From contig NZ_CP019947.1 in the NCBI RefSeq assembly GCF_002025205.1, positions 503,501 through 567,500 of the forward strand: 64,000 nt of DNA, in the 5' to 3' direction. Source of the DNA: Pseudomonas sp. CC6-YY-74. Its GTDB lineage: Bacteria > Pseudomonadota > Gammaproteobacteria > Pseudomonadales > Pseudomonadaceae. Positions 14,062 to 23,163 of this stretch are shown piece by piece. The notes under the pieces were generated by a model. That model worked only from the letters and a program-made list of their open reading frames with translations. It ran no database searches and was not told where the DNA came from. The position numbers and the translations under genes were made by a program. The first letter of the stretch is position 1; each line of letters opens with the position of its first letter.

Positions 14062-16389
14062 CTAGAGGCTCGGTTCGGTCAGCAGCGGCAGGCGGCAGCG
14101 TTCGACACGCCACCAGGTCGGCAGCAGGCGGCGGATGGCGGGCTGGTTGAAGCGATCGTCGATCAGGTAGACCACGCCCTGGTCGTCCGTGGTGCGGATT
14201 ACTCTGCCGGCGGCCTGCACGACTTTCTGCAGGCCGGGGTAGAGGTAGGTGTAGTCGTAGCCCAGGTGGTTGCCGAACATGCCCTGCATGCGCTGCTTGA
14301 TTTCCTCGTTGACCGGGTTGATCTGCGGCAGGCCGAGGGTGGCGATGAAGGCGCCGATCAGGCGGTCGCCGGGCAGGTCGATGCCCTCGCCAAACGCGCC
14401 GCCGAGCACGGCGAAGCCGATGCCCTGGCCGGCGCTGCTGAAGCGATCGAGAAAAGCCTGGCGCTGGCTTTCGTCCATCTGCCGCGACTGTTGCCAGATC
14501 GGGATCTGCGGGTGGGCGGCGCTGAATTCATCCAGCACCAGGCCCAGGTAGGCGTAGCTGCTGAAGAAGGCCAGGTAGTTGCCCGGCCGTTCGGCGAATT
14601 GGCGCGCCATCAGCGCGGCGATCGGCGCCAGCGAGTAGTCGCGGTGGGCGAAGCGGGTCGACAGGTTACTGACCGCCTGCACCTGCAATTGCTCGGCGCT
14701 GAACGGCGACTCGACATCGATCCACGGCGTCTGCTGCGGCAGGCCGAGCAGGTCGGCGTAGTAGTGCGCGGGGCTCAGGGTCGCGGAGAACAGGGTGCAG
14801 CTGTGGGCGGCGGCGAAGCGCGGGGCGAGGAAGGGCGCCGGCACTATATTGCGGATGCACAGGGTGGAGGTCGCGGGCCCGCTGGGGTTGTCGTCGCGGC
14901 TGATGTCGAACAGCGAATGGCTGTCGAAGGCCTCGGCGAGGCGGCAGAACAGCATGGCGTCCAGGTAGAAGTGCAGCAACTCAGCGGCGTTGCCCGCCGG
15001 TTGATCGGTGAGGTGATCGGTGAGGGTGCTGACGGCCTTGTGCAGGGCCATGATGAACAGGTCGGGGGCGGCGGGGTAGACCTGATAGGCCGCCTCCTGG
15101 TCGCGCTGCAGTTGTTGCCAATGCCGGTTGACCCGTTCTAGTGGGCCTTTCATTACTGGCGGGGCGATGCGTCTGAGGGCCTCGAAGCGGGTCTGCTCGA
15201 GTTCGGCGGTGTACATGCCGCGGCCGCGTTCGATCAGGTTGTGCGCCTCGTCCACCAGCAGGGTCACGCGCCACTCGTTGAGCAGGGTCAGGCCATGCAG
15301 CAGGCCGCCCATGTCGAAGTAGTAGTTGTAGTCGCAGACCACCACGTCGGCCCAGCGGCACAGTTCCTGGCTCAGGTAATAGGGACAGATTCGATGTTCC
15401 AGCGCGGTTTCGCGCACGCTGTCCTGGTCCAGCCACTGGCGTTCCAGCGCGGCCTGGCGCGCGGCCGGCAAGCGGTCGTAGAAACCCTTGGCCAGCGGGC
15501 AGGAGTCGCCGTGGCAGGCCTTGTCCGGATGTTCGCAGGCCTTGTCGCGGGCGACGTGTTCCAGCACCCGCAGCGGCATCGCGCGTTCCTGGCTGCGCAG
15601 GGTCGCCAGGGCGTCCAGCGCCAGGCGCCGGCCGGGGGTCTTGGCGGTGAGGAAGAACAGCCGATCCAGCTCCTGCTCGGGGAAGGCCTTGAGCTGCGGA
15701 AACAGGGTGCCGAGGGTCTTGCCGATGCCGGTGGTGGCCTGGGCCATCAGGCTGTGGCCGTCACGGGCGGCGCGGTACACCGACTCGGCCAACTGGCGCT
15801 GGCCGCTGCGAAACTGCTGGTGGGGGAAGCGCAGGCGCTCGAGCGCCTGGTTGCGCAGCAGGCGATGTGCGCGCTCGTGCTCGGCCCAGGTGATGAAAAG
15901 GCTGCAGTGCAGTTCGAAGAACTCACGCAGTTCATCGGCGCTGCAGCGCTGATGGAAGGCGGTTTCGTGCTGGCTGAGGACGTTGAAATAGACCACCGCC
16001 AGGTCGATCTCGGCCAGGCCGCGTTGCTGGCACAGCAACCAGCCGTAGACCTTGGCCTGGGCCCAATGCAGCAGGCGGTGGTTCTCCGGGATGCGCGCGA
16101 TGTCGCCGCGGTGGGTCTTGATCTCTTCCAGGCGGTTGTCGTCCGGGTCATAGCCGTCGGCCCGGCCGCGCACCTGCAGGCCCTGGTATTCGCCGCTCAG
16201 CGGCAGTTCCGCCTGGTAACCCGGACCGCGCCGGGAGACCACGATGGCGTGGCCGGTCATGCCTTCCTGGGCGGTGGGCGAGGGGGTGAAGCGCAGATCC
16301 AGGTCACCGACCTTGGCGGTGAATTCGCAGAGCGCGCGCACCGCCACCTGGTAGTTCATGGCCCCGTTATTCACGACTAGTTGCGTCAT
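14062..16389 (-). CDS. Rad3/DinG-type ATP-dependent DNA helicase with FeS domain
   Basis: 775-residue superfamily 2 helicase of the XPD/Rad3/DinG group. The N-terminus (to about residue 170) resembles a RecB-like PD-(D/E)XK nuclease region (RGRADGYDPDDNRLEEIKTH). The helicase part has Walker A ATTGIGKTLGTLF, four iron-sulfur cysteines (KACEHPDKACHGDSC ... HRICPYYL), the DEAH box TLLVDEAHNLIERG, and C-terminal motifs (GGAFGEGIDLPGD, QAAGRVIRT). It should unwind DNA 5' to 3' in repair. Its ATG overlaps the TGA of the FAN1 gene (ATGA), so translation is coupled. The operon is preceded by a LexA-type box, which suggests induction by DNA damage. Confidence 0.9.
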   Translation of the reverse strand: MTQLVVNNGAMNYQVAVRALCEFTAKVGDLDLRFTPSPTAQEGMTGHAIVVSRRGPGYQAELPLSGEYQGLQVRGRADGYDPDDNRLEEIKTHRGDIARIPENHRLLHWAQAKVYGWLLCQQRGLAEIDLAVVYFNVLSQHETAFHQRCSADELREFFELHCSLFITWAEHERAHRLLRNQALERLRFPHQQFRSGQRQLAESVYRAARDGHSLMAQATTGIGKTLGTLFPQLKAFPEQELDRLFFLTAKTPGRRLALDALATLRSQERAMPLRVLEHVARDKACEHPDKACHGDSCPLAKGFYDRLPAARQAALERQWLDQDSVRETALEHRICPYYLSQELCRWADVVVCDYNYYFDMGGLLHGLTLLNEWRVTLLVDEAHNLIERGRGMYTAELEQTRFEALRRIAPPVMKGPLERVNRHWQQLQRDQEAAYQVYPAAPDLFIMALHKAVSTLTDHLTDQPAGNAAELLHFYLDAMLFCRLAEAFDSHSLFDISRDDNPSGPATSTLCIRNIVPAPFLAPRFAAAHSCTLFSATLSPAHYYADLLGLPQQTPWIDVESPFSAEQLQVQAVSNLSTRFAHRDYSLAPIAALMARQFAERPGNYLAFFSSYAYLGLVLDEFSAAHPQIPIWQQSRQMDESQRQAFLDRFSSAGQGIGFAVLGGAFGEGIDLPGDRLIGAFIATLGLPQINPVNEEIKQRMQGMFGNHLGYDYTYLYPGLQKVVQAAGRVIRTTDDQGVVYLIDDRFNQPAIRRLLPTWWRVERCRLPLLTEPSL

Positions 16390-18023
16390 GCGTCGGCCCA
16401 CTGTACGTAGCAGACGTCCACCGGCATGCCGTGCTCGGCGCAGAACGCCAGCCAGCGGCGCTGGTTGTCCTGCAGGCGGTCGCCGGGGCCTTTGACCTCG
16501 ATCATCCGGTAGCGCCGCTGCGCCGGCCAGAACTGGATCAGGTCGGGCATGCCCGCGCGGTTGGCCTTGATATCACCCAGCAGGCGCTGGAACCAGGCCC
16601 GCAGGTGCGTCGCCGGCAGGCAGTCGAGGGCTTGCTCCAGTAACTGTGGATCGAGGGCGTTCCAGAACACGAAGGGCGACTGGACGCCGTATTTGTCGGC
16701 ATAGGTCTGGCGGATCGTGCTCTTGTAGGCATCTGAATCCAGTTGCGCCAGGCAGGCGACGAACAGTTCGGCGCGGCGCGGCTGGAAGTCGGGGCTGAGC
16801 AGATCCAGTGGACCGCTCTGGAACGGATGGAAGAACGCGCCCGGCAGCGGGGCGAAGATCGCCGGCCAGCAGAGCAGGCCGAACAGGCTGCAGATCAGGC
16901 TGTTCTCGACGTAGTGCACCGGCGCGTCCGCTTCGCTCAGGTGCAGCTTGACCCCGTATTCGACACTCTGCCCTGCGGGCCTGGGCAGGCACAGGTCGAG
17001 GCGGGCCGGTGCGGGCGGCTTGGGTTTGGTTGGTTGGGCCAGGCCGAGCTGGCGGCGCAGACGCAGCAGCACGCGCTCCAGCCCTTGTGCTTCGGCCTCG
17101 TTTTCCGCTGCCACGGCCGCCTGGCAGGCCAGCTCATGCGCTTCGGCGGCGCGGCCCAGGCGTTCCAGTACGCGGATGCGGCGCAGGCGGGCGCCGGTAA
17201 ATGGGCAGTCGACATAGCAGGCCAGGGCGTTTTCCAGCTCCCCGGCGCGCTCCAGATGCTGGCCCAGGCGAAACCGCAGCTTGGCCCGGCGCATGGCGAG
17301 AAAGGGCGTGGCGCAGTCCAGCGCAGCGATCTGTTGCAGCACTTCGGCGACCGGCTCGCCGGCCTCGCCACGTTCATGGCAGCGTTGCAGCGCCAGGTAG
17401 CAGTCCAGCTCTGCGCGCTGGCGGAATACCCGGGAGTCGGCACTCAGCGCGACCGGCTCGTAGCGGAAGATGCCCAGGTCGGCGAGGACGAACTCCGACC
17501 AGTCCTGCTGCAGGTTGCCGAAAAACAGCAGGCGCAGGCGTTCGCAGAGCGGATTGATGACCAGGCTGTAAACCTGCTCGTCGAGCCCTGGGCACCAGTC
17601 GGCAAAGCTGCGCGACCGGCTGTGCTCGGCGGCCAGCTGAGCGAGCAACTGAGGTTTCTTCAAGGCTTTGTGTGCGCGCGCGGCGAAAGCCTCGAGCAGT
17701 TCTTCCTTGCGCAGCAGCTCGAACAACTCTGCCAGCGACAGCTCGGCGTCATGCCGAATCCAGCCGGCGTCGAGCAGCGCCTGGGCGGCGTGCAGCGGGC
17801 AGCCAATCTCGGCGTAGGCCAGCTTGCTGGCGCGAAAATGCGGGCCCTTGCGCATGATCATGCGGACCAGCAACGCCTGGCTGGGCAGCGCCAGTTCGCC
17901 GAAGCGGCGCAGGAATGCCTGCTCCTCGGCCAGCAACAGGTCGTGATGTCGCTCCTGGAGCCAGGTCAGGGCTTTATGGAAGTTGCACAGGTAATACAGG
18001 CTGGGGTCGAGCTGAGGCTGCAT
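16386..18023 (-). CDS. fan1: FAN1-type VRR-NUC structure-specific nuclease
   Basis: About 545 residues. It is a bacterial homologue of the FANCD2/FANCI-associated nuclease FAN1, which cuts 5'-flap structures and helps unhook DNA crosslinks. The C-terminal VRR-NUC domain carries the catalytic residues NRAGMPDLIQFWP...RMIEVKGPGDRLQDNQ (PD...EVK). The middle has TPR-like helices (ERAGELENALACY, LERLGRAAEAHELA), and the N-terminus has the winged-helix-like SAP-type region (RKGPHFRASKLAYAEIG). Start: the longer frame opens at 18047, but that ATG lies inside a LexA-like box; 18023 fits the homologue N-terminus (DPSLYYLCNF). It forms a two-gene repair operon with the Rad3-type helicase. Confidence 0.9.
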   Translation of the reverse strand: MQPQLDPSLYYLCNFHKALTWLQERHHDLLLAEEQAFLRRFGELALPSQALLVRMIMRKGPHFRASKLAYAEIGCPLHAAQALLDAGWIRHDAELSLAELFELLRKEELLEAFAARAHKALKKPQLLAQLAAEHSRSRSFADWCPGLDEQVYSLVINPLCERLRLLFFGNLQQDWSEFVLADLGIFRYEPVALSADSRVFRQRAELDCYLALQRCHERGEAGEPVAEVLQQIAALDCATPFLAMRRAKLRFRLGQHLERAGELENALACYVDCPFTGARLRRIRVLERLGRAAEAHELACQAAVAAENEAEAQGLERVLLRLRRQLGLAQPTKPKPPAPARLDLCLPRPAGQSVEYGVKLHLSEADAPVHYVENSLICSLFGLLCWPAIFAPLPGAFFHPFQSGPLDLLSPDFQPRRAELFVACLAQLDSDAYKSTIRQTYADKYGVQSPFVFWNALDPQLLEQALDCLPATHLRAWFQRLLGDIKANRAGMPDLIQFWPAQRRYRMIEVKGPGDRLQDNQRRWLAFCAEHGMPVDVCYVQWADA

Positions 18024-18037
18024 GGGAAAACCGAATA

Positions 18038-18053
18038 CTGTTTGCATGTACAG
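18038..18053 (-). promoter_or_regulatory. LexA (SOS) box candidate for the fan1-helicase operon
   Basis: CTGTTTGCATGTACAG is a 16-base CTG-N10-CAG palindrome with CTGT/ACAG ends, as in the gammaproteobacterial LexA consensus. A TTGCAA hexamer about 20 bases upstream could be the -35 element. The box sits immediately before the preferred fan1 start and spans the alternative one. The match is by eye; the regulation is inferred, and it is consistent with a DNA repair operon. Confidence 0.65.
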
Positions 18054-18513
18054 ATATCAGCGCGCCGCTCGCTTTGCAACGAGCAGGGGATGGGAGGCTG
18101 AGTCCGGCGCCCAGGTGTGGCGAGTTCAGAAGAGTTGTGAGCAGCGCGGCACACGTGGCAAGCCGCTGGCACAGGGCGCTATCGTAGGGTGGCGTTGAGC
18201 GCAGCGATAGCCATCACCGCGAAGATCAACCCGCACGTGGGCAGGCTTGCAGTTGCTGCTGCCAACCATTGCCGGGCAGGGGCGTGATTGATGGATGAGC
18301 GAGGGGTATTGCAGCGCTCAAACCTACGCAGCCCGCCGCATCCTACAAACGCCGTCACCCCTGGGATTGCCTTCCGGCCGCTGCCAAGACCGCACTCGGC
18401 ATAGCGACGGCGCGAACCGACGGCAGAATCCGCCTCCGACTGCTTTACTTGAGCGCGGCAGCCGCACCGTCAATACTGAGCCGGCTTCGATCATCCACCC
18501 CGTAAGGATTCCC
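18054..18513. other. intergenic region with GTAGGGTGG repeat fragment
   Basis: 460 bases between the divergent fan1 and lipoprotein genes. At 18184-18235 there is CGTAGGGTGGCGTTGAGCGC..., a fragment of the common GTAGGGTGG intergenic repeat. The region 18318-18350 (CCTACGCAGCCCGCCGCATC) looks like a degenerate partner in inverse orientation. No convincing gene: an open frame from 18295 into the lipoprotein has no ribosome site. Confidence 0.4.
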
Positions 18514-18939
18514 ATGCGATTGATTTGTGCAGTTCTGCCCCTGCTGGCGTTGGCCGGTTGTTCGTCCTTTCAGGCTGCTCCCGAGAAGGTGAGCGCGGTG
18601 CCCAGTGAACGCTTGCTGGCCTACCAGCAGCCAGTCGAGGGCGGCGGGCTGATCGTGGTCAACCGCGACCTGGGCATGCTCGGCGGCGGCTGCTACGTGG
18701 CGGTGCTGGTCGATCGCCAAGTGGCGGCGCGCATCGGCATGGGCGAACAGGCGCGCTTCCATGTGCCGCCGGGTAACCGGGTGGTCGGCATTGGCATCGA
18801 TGAGGCTGACGACACCCTCTGCGGCAAGGGCCGGCTGCGCCGCGAACTGGCTGTGCGGGTAGCAGAGGGTGAAAGCCAGCACCTGCGCATCATCAGTGAA
18901 GCCAAGAGCGGATTCGATATCCGTCCTGCCACGCCCTGA
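18514..18939 (+). CDS. small outer-membrane-type lipoprotein, function unknown
   Basis: 141-residue protein beginning MRLICAVLPLLALAGCSSFQ: a lipoprotein signal peptide with lipobox LAGC and Ser at +2, which favours outer-membrane sorting. The mature part has a repeated small beta-rich pattern (VVNRDLGMLGGGCYVAVLVD, RFHVPPGNRVVGIGID, AVRVAEGESQHLRI). This resembles the DUF2846-like or PEGA-like beta-sandwich of bacterial lipoproteins with an attached carbohydrate-binding flavour, but I cannot assign a family with certainty. ATG 18514 is chosen because AAGGA lies 6 bases upstream and the signal peptide starts here. It is followed by an unrelated DUF808 gene. Function unknown. Confidence 0.8.
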   Translation: MRLICAVLPLLALAGCSSFQAAPEKVSAVPSERLLAYQQPVEGGGLIVVNRDLGMLGGGCYVAVLVDRQVAARIGMGEQARFHVPPGNRVVGIGIDEADDTLCGKGRLRRELAVRVAEGESQHLRIISEAKSGFDIRPATP

Positions 18940-18956
18940 TTGCTCGCAAGACTGAA

Positions 18957-19001
18957 AGGCTGTGAAAAAATGCTTACCTACTGCGACCGCCTCCAGACGC
19001 C
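18957..19001 (+). repeat. CCTACTGCG-type intergenic repeat, copy A
   Basis: AGGCTGTGAAAAAATGCTTA...CCTACTGCGACCGCCTCCAGACGCC. About 80 percent of positions match 34576-34621 (GAGCCTGTGAAACAAC...CCTACTGCGGCCGTCTCCAAACGCC). It is a second, different dispersed non-coding repeat family, lying just after a stop codon in both places. Confidence 0.6.
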
Positions 19002-19154
19002 CGCTGCTGGCGCTCGATATGTTCACAGCCTCTGAGCCTTGGCCACTGGGGATTTCCCAGCAGCCTGCAGTGCTGATCTACTACAGCTCCCCATTACTGG
19101 GAGCGGCGGTTAGCGAGCGCGCCGTTGAGAATCTGCTTGTCGAGGAAAATATCC

Positions 19155-20108
19155 GTGGCCGGAACCAGCCTGTTAGCTCTGCTTGACGATATCGCCAGCA
19201 TGCTCGACGACGTGGCGTCGATGACCAAGATCGCCGCGAAGAAGAGCGCGGGCATGCTGGGTGACGACCTGGCCTTGAATGCCCAGCAGGTCTCGGGGGT
19301 CAAGGCCGAGCGCGAGCTGCCGGTGGTTTGGGCGGTTGCCAAGGGGTCGCTGCTGAACAAACTGATTCTGGTGCCGGCGGCGCTGGTTATCAGTTTGCTG
19401 GCGCCCTGGGTGGTTACCCCGCTGCTGATGCTTGGCGGCGCTTTTCTCTGCTATGAAGGTTTCGAGACGCTGGCCCACAAACTGCGGCCCAGCAAGGATA
19501 AGGAGCAGGCACACAAAGCCGAGCTGACGGCCGCATTGACCAACCCCGCCATCGATCTGGTCGCTTTTGAGCGCGACAAGATCAAGGGGGCGGTGCGTAC
19601 CGACTTCATTCTCTCGGCGGAAATCATCGTTATCACCCTCGGCACCGTGACCGGCCAGCCTCTGGTCACTCAGCTCGGCGTGCTCGCCGGCATCGCCCTG
19701 CTCATGACTGTCTGCGTCTATGGGCTGGTGGCCGGCATCGTCAAGCTGGACGACGGCGGCCTGTACCTTTCCCAGCGCAGTGGCAGCGGCCTGGTCGGGC
19801 GCCTGCAGCGCAGTATCGGTGGCGGCATTCTCAGCGCCGCGCCCTACCTGATGAAGAGCCTGGCGGTGATTGGCACGGTGGCGATGTTCATGGTCGGCGG
19901 CGGCATCCTCAGTCACGGCATTCCAGGAGTTCAAGCACTGATCGAAGGCTTCGCCCACGGCCTGCAAGCCGTGCCGACACTCGGCGGCGCACTGGCGACG
20001 ATTACCCCAACGCTGCTGGACATGCTGCTGGGTGTGCTGGCCGGCGCGCTGGTGCTGGTCGGGGTGACGGCCTTGGGGCGCCTGTACCGGGTGTTCAAGT
20101 CGGCATAG
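19155..20108 (+). CDS. DUF808 family inner-membrane protein (YedI-like)
   Basis: 317-residue membrane protein of the DUF808/YedI family. The family N-terminus AGTSLLALLDDIASMLDDVASMTKIAAKKSAGMLGDDLALNAQQVSG is present, beginning at a GTG codon (19155) with GAGGAAA about 7 bases before it. The upstream in-frame ATG at 19125 is less likely. Hydrophobic helices occur near residues 70-110 (LILVPAALVISLLAPWVVTPLLMLGG), 160-225, 245-270 and 290-312, giving perhaps six to eight membrane passes. The family is widespread but its biochemical role is not known. It is transcribed alone, read towards the accessory island. Confidence 0.88.
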   Translation: MAGTSLLALLDDIASMLDDVASMTKIAAKKSAGMLGDDLALNAQQVSGVKAERELPVVWAVAKGSLLNKLILVPAALVISLLAPWVVTPLLMLGGAFLCYEGFETLAHKLRPSKDKEQAHKAELTAALTNPAIDLVAFERDKIKGAVRTDFILSAEIIVITLGTVTGQPLVTQLGVLAGIALLMTVCVYGLVAGIVKLDDGGLYLSQRSGSGLVGRLQRSIGGGILSAAPYLMKSLAVIGTVAMFMVGGGILSHGIPGVQALIEGFAHGLQAVPTLGGALATITPTLLDMLLGVLAGALVLVGVTALGRLYRVFKSA

Positions 20109-20208
20109 GCGGCCAGGACTCTGGGCGGTCTCGATCATGAGCCGGCTGATAAGAGCTATTTGACCCGAGCAAACGCCTGCGGGGTAACGCGCCAGCGACG
20201 TGCCTTAT

Positions 20209-20284
20209 GCATAGCGTTTGGTTAAGGGGCTGGCTTTAGCCAGTCCCAGTGAGGGCAGCGAACGACTTGAACCACTAGTTAGAC
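20209..20284 (-). repeat. attC-like integron recombination site A (3' end of the gene cassette)
   Basis: On the minus strand it starts with GTCTAAC (20278-20284), a perfect R'' box (RYYYAAC) that contains the stop codon of the cassette gene. The L'' box GGTTCAAG (20266-20273) and L' box CTTAACC (20220-20226) pair, leaving one extra unpaired base in L'', a hallmark of attC. A central palindrome ACTGGCTAAAGCCAG lies between. The R' end reads GCTATGC instead of GTTRRRY, so this outer end is degenerate. The middle is almost identical to site B. Confidence 0.8.
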
Positions 20285-20665
20285 GGCACCTGCGCCAAGC
20301 CAGGTGAGCGCCGCTACGATCGATAGCGCGATCCAGCCAGGGTGCCGCCCCTTGGTTCCGACGAGCACAAGAACCGCTCCCCCAAGATTGGCGAAAACGA
20401 TGGCGCCAGCCACGAGCGATGCAGACATGGTGTGGCCCAGCGCCAGTTGGAGTAGCAAGCCCGCGAACGCCCAGCCAAATAATGTGGCGAGGTGCCACGT
20501 GGCCCAAATGATTCGGACGTGGCGTTCACGCAGCGGTGGGGCACCTAGCGCCGGCACCAGGCTGCCATTACGGAGGTGTCGAAAGATGAGAATCTCGCCA
20601 AATGCCGAGTGCACTAGGCCGGTTACTGCCGAGAGTATTGCTGCAACTAAATACGGGGTTTGCAT
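20279..20665 (-). CDS. integron-cassette-encoded small membrane protein
   Basis: 128-residue hydrophobic protein with about four transmembrane helices (residues about 5-25, 50-70, 75-97 and 107-126). It also has conserved-looking histidines in GLVHSAFGEILIFRHLR and RHVRIIWATWHLATLFGWAF. No family with known function is recognised. The gene fills a classical gene cassette: its TAA stop lies inside the R'' box of attC site A, and its ATG is 28 bases after the R' box (GTTAGGC) of site B. It reads away from the integrase remnant at 22765-23163, as cassettes do. GC content is lower than its neighbours. It is likely acquired; function unknown. Confidence 0.8.
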   Translation of the reverse strand: MQTPYLVAAILSAVTGLVHSAFGEILIFRHLRNGSLVPALGAPPLRERHVRIIWATWHLATLFGWAFAGLLLQLALGHTMSASLVAGAIVFANLGGAVLVLVGTKGRHPGWIALSIVAALTWLGAGAV

Positions 20666-20692
20666 GCGGATATTCTTAAGGCTCGGTGTGGC

Positions 20693-20757
20693 GCCTAACG
20701 TTCAGGTTAAGGGGCTGGCTTTAGCCAGTCCCAGTGAGCGTAGCGAACGGCTTGAAT
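20693..20757 (-). repeat. attC-like integron recombination site B (interrupted)
   Basis: On the minus strand, the right half is intact: L' CTTAACC (20705-20711) and R' GTTAGGC (20693-20699, matches GTTRRRY). The central palindrome and the L'' core TTCAAG (20751-20756) match site A. Beyond L'' the expected RYYYAAC box is missing and the sequence changes to the region that leads into an IS110/IS1111-type transposase fragment. The site therefore looks cut by that insertion. Confidence 0.75.
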
Positions 20758-21012
20758 GCTGTAATGGACTCTCCCCGCGCCACAGTTCTATACCGAGAGT
20801 GGTGGTGACTGATCATTGGGAGAGGCGTTATGAAGCGAATTTCGGCTGATCTGGTCAAGTCCGTTTACCACGTTGCCGAGAGTGTCCGTTCCGGCCAGGT
20901 GGTGCAGCGTAAGCGGCTGAACCGAGAGGCGTTTAGGCGATATATACAGGAGCAGGCCGAGCCGGACGAGTGGCTAATGGAGGCCTGTGGCACGGCGCAT
21001 TACTGGGGCCGC
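20758..21012 (+). mobile_element. IS110/IS1111-type insertion sequence remnant
   Basis: The frame opening at 20830 encodes the N-terminus of an IS110-superfamily (IS1111 group) DEDD transposase: MKRISADLVKSVYHVAESVR, then KRLNREAFRRYIQEQ and LMEACGTAHYWGRVAL, with the first catalytic Asp in SADLVKS. After residue about 61 the family match stops abruptly and the reading frame runs into AT-rich DNA (SFLLYEARFISMYFYLF) to a stop at 21090. Only about 60 of about 340 residues remain, so it is dead. It begins directly at the lost edge of attC site B. The IS1111-attC group is known to insert specifically into attC sites, which fits. Confidence 0.75.
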
Positions 21013-21201
21013 GTGGCGCTGTCATTTTTACTGTATGAAGCTCGATTTATCAGTATGTATTTTTATCTTTTTCTTCTGTTGCGTTTTTAAATAAAATCGA
21101 TTTGGCCATCATCATTTACCATTTAGTAAAGATGATTTAAGACAATGCCAGTGTTAAAAAACAGCCGATATCGTAGGCGGTCATATGATTTTTAATGACT
21201 T

Positions 21202-21684
21202 TTATGTGTTTTCTTTCTCTGTGTTTTCTTTCTCTGTTTTTTCTATAGCTGCACTTAGTTTTTGATATATACCGAGCGCCACAATTAAAATCGCTGATAC
21301 CATGATGAGTAAAGCTGGATACAGTAAAAGGCTAAGGTCTTTCGTTCCTGCTTTAAATATAAAAACCAACCCTTCAATGCTGACAGCAATAGTAATTATT
21401 ACAATTATTTTTGTAATTGTTCTTCTGGCTTCTTTAGGGTCTCGCAGCTCTTTTTCCTTAAATACTTCTTCTTCCATCATATACTGTGCAACATCAATAA
21501 TGGCTGCAGCTATTATGATAGCGGCTACAGACTGAAGCATTAGTGGAATAAATCCAGTGTCATCCTTTATTCCGGAAATGACGTCATAAACAGACCACAG
21601 CATAATTATCAGGGATAGGAGTATAAGAACTACAGCCGCGAACAGGTGAACTCCAGAGAATATAGTATTAAACAATTTTTTCAT
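21202..21684 (-). CDS. AT-rich orphan membrane protein, function unknown
   Basis: 160-residue protein with four clear membrane helices (about residues 8-32, 46-66, 90-112 and 120-142) and a charged tail ending in a twice-repeated TEKEN unit, encoded by a 15-base tandem repeat at 21206-21235. The gene is strongly AT-rich with A/T-ending codons, unlike everything around it, so it was acquired from elsewhere. It reads in the same direction as the gene cassette and lies between it and the integrase remnant, so it may be a former cassette, but no attC site could be seen next to it. It resembles no family I recognise. It is bounded by the IS1111-type remnant and the IS30 element. Confidence 0.7.
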   Translation of the reverse strand: MKKLFNTIFSGVHLFAAVVLILLSLIIMLWSVYDVISGIKDDTGFIPLMLQSVAAIIIAAAIIDVAQYMMEEEVFKEKELRDPKEARRTITKIIVIITIAVSIEGLVFIFKAGTKDLSLLLYPALLIMVSAILIVALGIYQKLSAAIEKTEKENTEKENT

Positions 21685-21701
21685 ATTTTTTGACCTTTAA
21701 G

Positions 21702-21715
21702 AGTTCCTGAACTCA
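21702..21715. repeat. perfect palindrome next to the IS30 end
   Basis: GAGTTCCTGAACTC, six-base perfect arms with a 2-base centre, ending 5 bases before the left end of the IS30-family element. IS30-type transposases often choose palindromic or inverted-repeat targets, so this may be the target structure. It also lies just upstream of the AT-rich gene start and could be its operator. Confidence 0.45.
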
Positions 21716-21719
21716 TAGA

Positions 21720-22757
21720 ATAAGTGCAACGTTTGAGACGACAGGCAGAGAGCCAGCCACCGGTAGAATCCAGGCTCTCACACCGAAGGATTCAAGCGCA
21801 GATGACTACGCCTTACCGGCAGCTGACTCAGGGCCAACGTTACCAGATTGAGGCCGGTTTAATCGCCGGCAATAACCAGATCAGCCTTGCTAAACAGCTT
21901 GGCGTGCATCCCGCGACCATCAGCCGAGAGATCCGCCGCAACTGCGCAGAAAACCGCTACGCAGCTGTTTCAGCGACCCAGAAAAGCGATGCGCGCCGTG
22001 CCCAAGCACACAAGTACTGCAAGCCCGTTGCCTGGTTCCGTCACTACCTGCCGATCTGGCTTCAGCACGGGATGAGCCCAGAACAAATTGCTCATCGTTT
22101 AAAGCAAGAGCGGCCTGATGACACTGCGAGTCATGAGTGGATTTACCAATTCATCGCCATCGACAAGCGCCGTGGCGGTGATTTGTATACGCACCTTCGC
22201 CACCGTCGGAAATGCTACCGAAAGCGCTACGGAAGCCACGACCGACGCGGACAACTACGAAATCGCGTGTCGATCAGTGAGCGGCCTGCTGAGGTCGAAA
22301 CACGTGAACGGCTAGGCGATTGGGAGGGTGATACGGTGCACGGCCTCGGCGGCAATATCGTGACGTTGGTTGATCGAAAAAGCGGCTACCTGAGCGCCTA
22401 CCCGGTCAAGCGCAGAACACGGAGACAGGTGACGCGAGCAATCAACCTGCTGCTCAAGGGTCATGTGGCAAACACGTTGACGCTGGACAATGGCCGGGAG
22501 TTTGCCGGCCATGAATGCATCGCCCGCAAGAGCCAATGCGCGGTCTATTTTGCTGACCCGTATTCGTCTTGGCAGCGCGGCAGCAATGAAAATGCGAATG
22601 GCCTGTTGCGGCAGTATTTTCCCAAGGGCAGCGACTTTAGCAAGCTGACTGTGGAGGCCGTTAATCAGGCGGTAATGAAGATCAATTTACGACCACGCAA
22701 ACGCTTGGGCTGGAAGACACCATACGAAGTACAAGCAGGGGTAAGCGTTGCACTTAT
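21720..22757. mobile_element. IS30-family insertion sequence, apparently intact
   Basis: About 1.04 kb bounded by inverted ends ATAAGTGCAACG (21720-21731) and its complement CGTTGCACTTAT (22746-22757). It holds one full-length transposase gene whose last codons overlap the right end. A short direct target repeat could not be made out with certainty. The element sits immediately upstream of, and truncates, the integron integrase remnant. Confidence 0.8.
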
Positions 22758-22764
22758 GCGTTGA
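21802..22764 (+). CDS. IS30-family transposase
   Basis: 320-residue DDE transposase. The N-terminal helix-turn-helix of the IS30 type is LTQGQRYQIEAGLIAGNNQI and AKQLGVHPATISREIRRNC. The catalytic core shows the three acidic residues in GDWEGDTVHG, LTLDNGREFAGH and GSNENANGLLRQYFPKG. The length is complete for the family. ATG 21802 matches the usual family start (MTTPYRQLTQGQRYQI). A further 26 in-frame codons upstream to 21724 lie within the inverted end and are probably not translated. The stop codon lies a few bases outside the visible inverted repeat. The enzyme looks functional. Confidence 0.92.
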   Translation: MTTPYRQLTQGQRYQIEAGLIAGNNQISLAKQLGVHPATISREIRRNCAENRYAAVSATQKSDARRAQAHKYCKPVAWFRHYLPIWLQHGMSPEQIAHRLKQERPDDTASHEWIYQFIAIDKRRGGDLYTHLRHRRKCYRKRYGSHDRRGQLRNRVSISERPAEVETRERLGDWEGDTVHGLGGNIVTLVDRKSGYLSAYPVKRRTRRQVTRAINLLLKGHVANTLTLDNGREFAGHECIARKSQCAVYFADPYSSWQRGSNENANGLLRQYFPKGSDFSKLTVEAVNQAVMKINLRPRKRLGWKTPYEVQAGVSVALMR

Positions 22765-23163
22765 ATTCAGGCCTGGAAAAGCCATGAGCCTTTCTATCAA
22801 GCGCCGGTCAGCCTACCGTTTGCGCTGCGCCGCAAGTATCCGAACGCACCGCGCTCGTTCGAGTGGCAATGGCTGTTTCCTTCCACCAGCCTGTGCCCGG
22901 ACGAGGATGGCCAGATCGTGCGCCATCACATTCACGTCAGCTCCATCCAGAAAGCGGTCAAGCAGGCGCTGCATCGCTCTTGCGTGCACAAGCCCGCCAG
23001 CTGTCATGCCTTCAGGCACACCTTTGCCACCGAGTTGCTCAGGCGCGGCAGCGACATTCGTACCGTGCAGACGCTGCTGGGACATGCGGATGTGCGGACC
23101 ACGCAGATCTATACGCATGTGCTGGGCCAGGGTTTTGCCGAGGTGCAGAGCCCTTTGGGCTAG
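22765..23163 (+). pseudogene. intI: integron integrase IntI, C-terminal remnant truncated by IS30
   Basis: An open frame of 133 codons with no start, running directly out of the IS30 element. It matches the C-terminal 40 percent of integron tyrosine recombinases. The IntI-specific insert that XerC/D lack is present ([20 protein letters not shown] then QWLFPSTSL). It is followed by [17 protein letters not shown], the box II His-Arg ([13 protein letters not shown]), [16 protein letters not shown], the catalytic Tyr in IYTHVLGQG, and the typical end VQSPLG. The first catalytic Arg and the whole N-terminal half are missing, so it is inactive. It reads away from the attC sites and cassette, the normal integron geometry. 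Confidence 0.85.

Follow-up and report, generated by a model that had tools for sequence, protein, structure and literature searches.

Remnant of a chromosomal integron in Pseudomonas sp. CC6-YY-74, probably broken by an IS30-family element, and its counterpart in a second strain

Introduction

What remains of a chromosomal integron after it has collapsed, and can the break itself be located? This question is raised by positions 20209-23163 of a 64-kb stretch of the Pseudomonas sp. CC6-YY-74 chromosome (contig NZ_CP019947.1; hereafter the window, in genome G000). An earlier note, made from the DNA letters alone, had read this region as an inactivated integron, with two attC-like sites around a small cassette gene, two insertion sequences (IS), and the C-terminal part of a true integron integrase (IntI). 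We conclude that the region is very probably the remnant of a chromosomal integron, here called integron B, probably destroyed by an IS30-family element. At the corresponding position another strain, G402, still has a full-length intI and a long attC array. P. stutzeri, P. alcaligenes, and P. mendocina are named among integron hosts in an excerpt of PMC3108266. Decayed chromosomal integrons are known as a class; located here are the breakpoint and the living copy.

Results

Anatomy of the window locus

The region consists of the following parts, in window positions.

20209..20284, minus strand (cassette orientation): attC1, the terminal attC of the array (attC covariance model R1, 90.7 bits, expect value (E) 5.2e-25)
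20279..20665, minus strand: last-cassette gene for a 128-aa hydrophobic protein of unknown function (open reading frame)
20693..20756, minus strand: attC2, with R' and L' side and central palindrome, R'' end lost (model R1, 68.3 bits, E 4.7e-18 over 20693-20767)
20757..21019, plus strand: remnant of an IS1111-attC type element, left 263 bp with about the first 63 transposase codons (NF033542 IS110 transposase, E 3.9e-07; likeness to the L014 copy)
21020..21705, minus strand: AT-rich segment with a 160-aa membrane-type gene at 21202-21684 (G+C content and homologues)
21706..22771, plus strand: IS30-family element, transposase at 21724-22764 (NF033563, 303.9 bits, cut-off 80)
22772..23163, plus strand: 3' remnant of intI-B, from codon 192 of 321 (TIGR02249, E 1.5e-51)

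The functional form of an integron, a full-length integrase with attI, is absent from this locus. The IS30-family element stands where about the first 191 intI codons and the stretch linking intI to the cassettes would be. With two attC sites, both damaged, and no functional intI, the locus qualifies as a cluster of attC sites lacking an integrase (CALIN), for which an excerpt of PMC12444791 sets a threshold of two sites.

The same locus in a second strain

Matches at E up to 1e-25 came from 45 of the 398 genomes searched within the genus, and G402 was the sole one labelled as the same species. Its match lies in an open frame of 352 codons and is 98% identical. Both flanks are shared: window positions 18200-20220 correspond to G402 1542824-1544843 (96% identity), and those from 22771 onward to G402 1564859 onward (97%). 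Between the flanks lie about 20.0 kb in G402 versus 2.55 kb in the window. The G402 interval holds array B, with 16 attC-type sites (three split by IS4-family elements, and one weak terminal site at 22 bits), and a full-length intI-B that scores 404.2 bits on TIGR02249 (cut-off 265). The comparison with related strains suggested in the earlier note therefore yielded an intact intI between the same flanks, and with the 5' truncation in the window it bears out the proposed inactivation. The remnant frame points away from the cassette, as had been claimed; this divergence is matched in order, orientation, and flanks by the G402 locus.

On the left side, identity between the strains breaks off a few bases past the crossover triplet, inside the outer box of the last attC. 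From this shared boundary each strain continues into a last cassette of its own, a pattern consistent with site-specific exchange.

We observed a LexA-like box, CTGTATGAAAAAACAG (CTG-N10-CAG), at the start of G402 intI-B (L169:18256-18271); the matching 5' end is missing in the window. No such pattern was found in L014 10706-11120, upstream of the integrase gene of a second integron (A, below). G402 also carries two N-terminal integrase fragments. One (L200:7729-8040) is 76% identical to IntI-A, has an in-frame stop, and lies near DNA that is 84% like the region downstream of intI-B; the other (L203:7713-7862) is 62% identical to IntI-B over 50 residues.

The IS4-family element of G402 (213.8 bits, 1635 bp) occurs at L169:34-1668 and six other places. 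All seven copies (five whole, two interrupted) lie inside an attC, in the central palindrome GGGCTTTAGCCC, which is duplicated there. Among near-full-length relatives in other genomes (81-88% identical; at most two candidates per genome scored), 3 of 10 had an attC flank, and we rejected attC targeting as a rule for the whole group on this count. By title and the start of the abstract, none of the papers listed in one search on IS4 and attC reported such insertions.

The attC sites

Rfam had no match in the region, and we therefore built our own attC covariance model. From 58 extracted attC sites, one misparsed row was dropped (57) and 19 near-identical rows were thinned by hand, leaving 38 training sites from this genome and five others, none of them from the window. 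The structure was drawn from the box anatomy. The drawn pairs form in 95.5% of the alignment cells, a value reached by none of 500 shuffles. Three column pairs show changes on both sides; neither their number nor the pair types exceeded the shuffles (366 and 452 of 500 as high, respectively). The drawn structure is thus supported, short of proof because the training sequences are related.

Searched against both strands of the 64-kb window at E up to 10, the model gave exactly two matches, 20209-20284 and 20693-20767, and these are the two sites that the earlier note had picked out. The matches bear out its paired R and L boxes; the box anatomy needs correction in that attC2 proper ends at 20756, and in attC1 a degenerate R' box reads GCTATGC on the cassette strand, or GCATAGC in the letters of the window. 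The crossover triplet of attC1 is AGC, versus AAC at the same boundary in G402 (GCATAAC). AAC is present in all 17 sites examined from arrays A and B (6 of 8 and 11 of 16, of 24 in all), and we take this triplet to be the position of the strand cut. attC2 is interrupted after TTGAA, where the IS1111-attC type element starts. Folded as single-stranded DNA, the plus strands of the two sites have unremarkable energies (z -0.97 and -1.94).

Across the 5.04-Mb chromosome, where 150 of 1509 first-look candidates were scored, the model marked 22 places, made up of one single attC and five clusters. Further clusters without an adjacent integrase lie at 3561000-3562937 (L015), 2611954-2614268 (L016), and 1380394-1380864 (L017), and the single attC at 3672745-3672820. 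In plasmid records, the matches to attC were only partial.

The integrase remnant

The open frame at 22765-23160 encodes 132 residues that score 175.6 bits on TIGR02249 (E 1.5e-51), compared with 82.8 bits for XerC (2.6e-23) and 78.0 for XerD (7.4e-22); being truncated, the remnant stays below the TIGR02249 cut-off. The assignment to a true IntI, proposed for 22765-23163, holds far better than one to XerC or XerD, and its left boundary moves: the intI sequence proper begins at 22772. Codons are numbered from the ATG at L169:18287 (321 codons). The remnant retains the C-terminal motifs FRHTF, LGH, and IYTH, which we take to be the catalytic motifs of the integrase, and the stretch around an 11-residue segment is presumably the IntI-type insert. 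The N-terminal domain, the start, and attI are absent.

Over 393 bases the remnant and the G402 gene differ at 3, which makes the collapse look recent. Within the remnant's own genome, the integrase of integron A is its next best match. Among the nearest named relatives listed are IntI of Pseudomonas sp. (96% and 84%) and Stutzerimonas urumqiensis (77%).

Insertion sequences in the wreck

Of the two insertion sequences said to separate cassette and integrase, the IS30-family element is confirmed. The other is a 263-bp remnant, and a 686-bp gene-bearing AT-rich segment lies between them.

The IS30-family element is 1066 bp long, and its assignment is based on the transposase score and on matching ends (two copies compared). 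Four more full-length copies exist in the genome at 97-99% identity. Its right end abuts intI codon 192, exactly where the intI sequence begins, and we saw no target duplication at this copy. Another copy, at 1.38 Mb, lies about 110 bp from a degenerate attC. We considered whether that copy carries the missing intI half after a reciprocal exchange and rejected this: the two copies have flanks that do not match up as a pair, and nothing in the genome comes closer to the 5' half of intI-B than a 66% match over 228 bases, which lies in intI-A.

The IS1111-attC type remnant is 93.5% identical to the full-length L014 copy up to position 21019, with the rest missing. The full-length element has a 341-residue transposase (299.5 bits) and sits inside an attC of integron A. 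The insertion point is common to the copies in the window, L014, L179, and L171. The window copy thus has the fixed position at one attC end and the IS110-type transposase that mark this group, as judged from the left half alone, the right end being absent. According to an excerpt of PMC11187229, ISPst6 and ISKpn4 insert at one attC end, and seekRNA guides such elements. Our element resembles this group, as far as that excerpt describes it, in its target and in its transposase. Read by eye, the full-length L014 copy also carries ATGGACT and AGTCCAT close to its two ends, leaving 7 and 3 bases outside them; the window copy differs in being a left-end remnant.

Cassette genes and flanking genes

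The gene for the 128-aa protein occupies the space between the attC sites, and its TAA lies within the R'' box GTCTAAC of attC1, just as the earlier note had it. The protein has 750 homologues at E <= 0.001 among 1226 candidates. No family was found for it at E <= 0.001 in NCBIfam or Pfam, the Pfam matches being weak, and for both the 128-aa and the 160-aa protein Pfam and PADLOC gave weak matches at best.

The AT-rich segment has 34% G+C (measured over 21020-21704) versus 65% in the left flank. Its 160-aa protein has 372 homologues among 600 candidates; the best 120 of these 372 are 76-92% identical (the window itself aside), and those with names come from unrelated marine and sediment bacteria. 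AT richness together with homologues in unrelated bacteria is the pattern of a cassette gene. The model found no attC belonging to this segment, and plasmid records hold distant relatives of the protein at most. We interpret the segment as a likely second cassette that has lost its own attC.

The flanking DUF808 protein reaches 70% identity to P. alcaligenes, 64% to Stutzerimonas stutzeri, and no more than 71% to any of 80 kept loci from named genomes. For the ZapA-type flank the highest identity is 51%, among 57 genomes other than its own. Further left (16386-18047, minus strand), a FAN1-type nuclease with VRR_NUC, FAN1_HTH, and FANC_SAP domains is ordinary as far as seen.

Integron A and the opposite fates of two integrons

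Integron A of G000 (C1:103.8-112.05 kb) has eight attC sites, one of them holding the IS1111-attC element. Its integrase of 331 residues scores 494.8 bits and is 53% identical to IntI-B; it is by this identity that the two intI lineages are told apart. In G402 the flanks of locus A are kept (94% and 96%), with one attC (43.4 bits), a different IS30-family element (transposase 37% identical to that in the window), and a 390-bp intI-A remnant covering codons 47-176, which contains a stop and is also cut on its 3' side. G000 thus retains A with B collapsed, and G402 retains B with A collapsed. The two wrecks have a trait in common: an IS30-family element stands between the end of the array and an intI truncated at its 5' side, though it is not the same element in the two cases. 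The simplest reading is a common ancestor with both integrons, from which each strain would have lost a different one.

The attC sites of A (6 of 8) and B (11 of 16) were not separable: identity within groups minus identity between them was -0.006, and 1216 of 2000 label shuffles were at least as high. Such indistinct groups fit one cassette pool that, judging by these sequences, either enzyme may serve.

Seven genomes carry both intI lineages; the search used the C-terminal part of intI, by which remnants such as the intI-A of G402 can be missed. Both lineages are open in two (G223, G309), exactly one in four (G000, G402, G159, G198), and neither in one (G263). The four genomes that keep exactly one lineage open are suggestive at most.

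Discussion

Comparison with known systems

Integron B shares with the sedentary chromosomal integrons of Pseudomonas the IntI family, a divergent array, homogeneous attC sites of about 76 bp, and, in the G402 orthologue, the LexA-like box. It differs in that attI and the 5' end of intI are missing from the window along with almost every cassette, and in that the species has two intI lineages. In Xanthomonas, an excerpt of PMC12444791 describes repeated lineage-specific inactivation of intI, CALINs, and truncated intI beside transposases. Going by that excerpt, the likeness to our locus extends to two attC sites without a functional integrase, a truncated intI, and lineage-specific loss. The difference is that here the break is visible at the level of the base, as the IS30 end at codon 192, and that a second integron shows the reverse state in the other strain. 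Integron decay and attC-targeting elements are already known; what stands out is that two integrons of one species met opposite fates in two strains. Our literature search of open-licence papers, of which parts were covered, found no report of reciprocal integron collapse, which leaves its absence in print unsettled.

Identity of the locus

Two readings would deny that an integron once stood here, and neither is convincing. If the parts were unrelated, the cassettes would have entered a secondary site, and insertion sequences would have placed an unconnected piece of integrase beside them; attC clusters without an adjacent integrase do exist elsewhere in the chromosome. We give this almost no credence, as G402 has the left flank, the terminal attC boundary, the array, intI, and the right flank in the same order and orientation. 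That the remnant derives from XerC/XerD or a phage integrase is just as improbable. It does score on general tyrosine recombinase models, but the integron-integrase model is ahead of XerC by 93 bits on 132 residues, its best relative within the genome is the integrase of integron A, and the full-length orthologue is recognized as an IntI.

Collapse and its cause

We propose that a deletion by the IS30-family element would have removed about the first 191 codons of intI-B together with attI and an unknown number of cassettes. The junction geometry, with the IS30 end at codon 192, suggests this role, and the IS30-family elements probably caused both deletions rather than arriving after them. The last cassette, with the 128-aa gene, may now be frozen. 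Loss of one integron would be tolerated if, as the likeness of their sites suggests, a single attC pool is open to the integrase that remains.

Several points weigh against this account. With two strains only, neither the polarity nor the dates of the losses are fixed. An IS30 element without target duplication fits a deletion; it also fits recombination between copies, or arrival of the element at a locus that was broken before. Reciprocal loss is no rule, given that two of the seven genomes with both lineages keep both open and one neither, and G402 carries broken intI fragments besides the one at locus A.

It is also conceivable, though we think it improbable, that the window locus is a working orphan array, whose attC sites are recombined in trans by the full-length IntI-A about 0.4 Mb away. 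The sites of A and B do form one pool, and an excerpt of PMC12444791 states that a functional IntI can mobilize CALINs in trans. Speaking against this are attC1, which lacks the AAC triplet kept at every examined site of the arrays, attC2, whose R'' side is lost to the IS remnant, and the 160-aa gene segment, in which the model detects no attC. As for the opposite fates of A and B, we lean towards coincidence, that is, random decay under IS pressure with unlinked losses. Two strains are a small base, in three of the seven genomes the two lineages share one fate (both open or neither), and repeated intI inactivation is common in Xanthomonas according to the same excerpt; the four genomes with exactly one open lineage point the other way, suggestively and not strongly. 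More tentatively, and in our view rather unlikely, redundancy may drive reciprocal loss: one attC pool would need one integrase, deletions by IS30-family elements in the attI/intI interval would cost each strain a different one, and all arrays would then belong, in trans, to the one that is left.

Significance

The death of an integron is caught here with its breakpoint and a living copy, at two loci, in two strains, and in opposite directions. attC-targeting and IS30-type elements would jointly have turned an array into fixed genes. Redundancy as a cause of integron loss becomes testable by typing more strains of one species. If redundancy is indeed the cause, the surviving integron would be a strain-level switch for where new cassettes land and are expressed.

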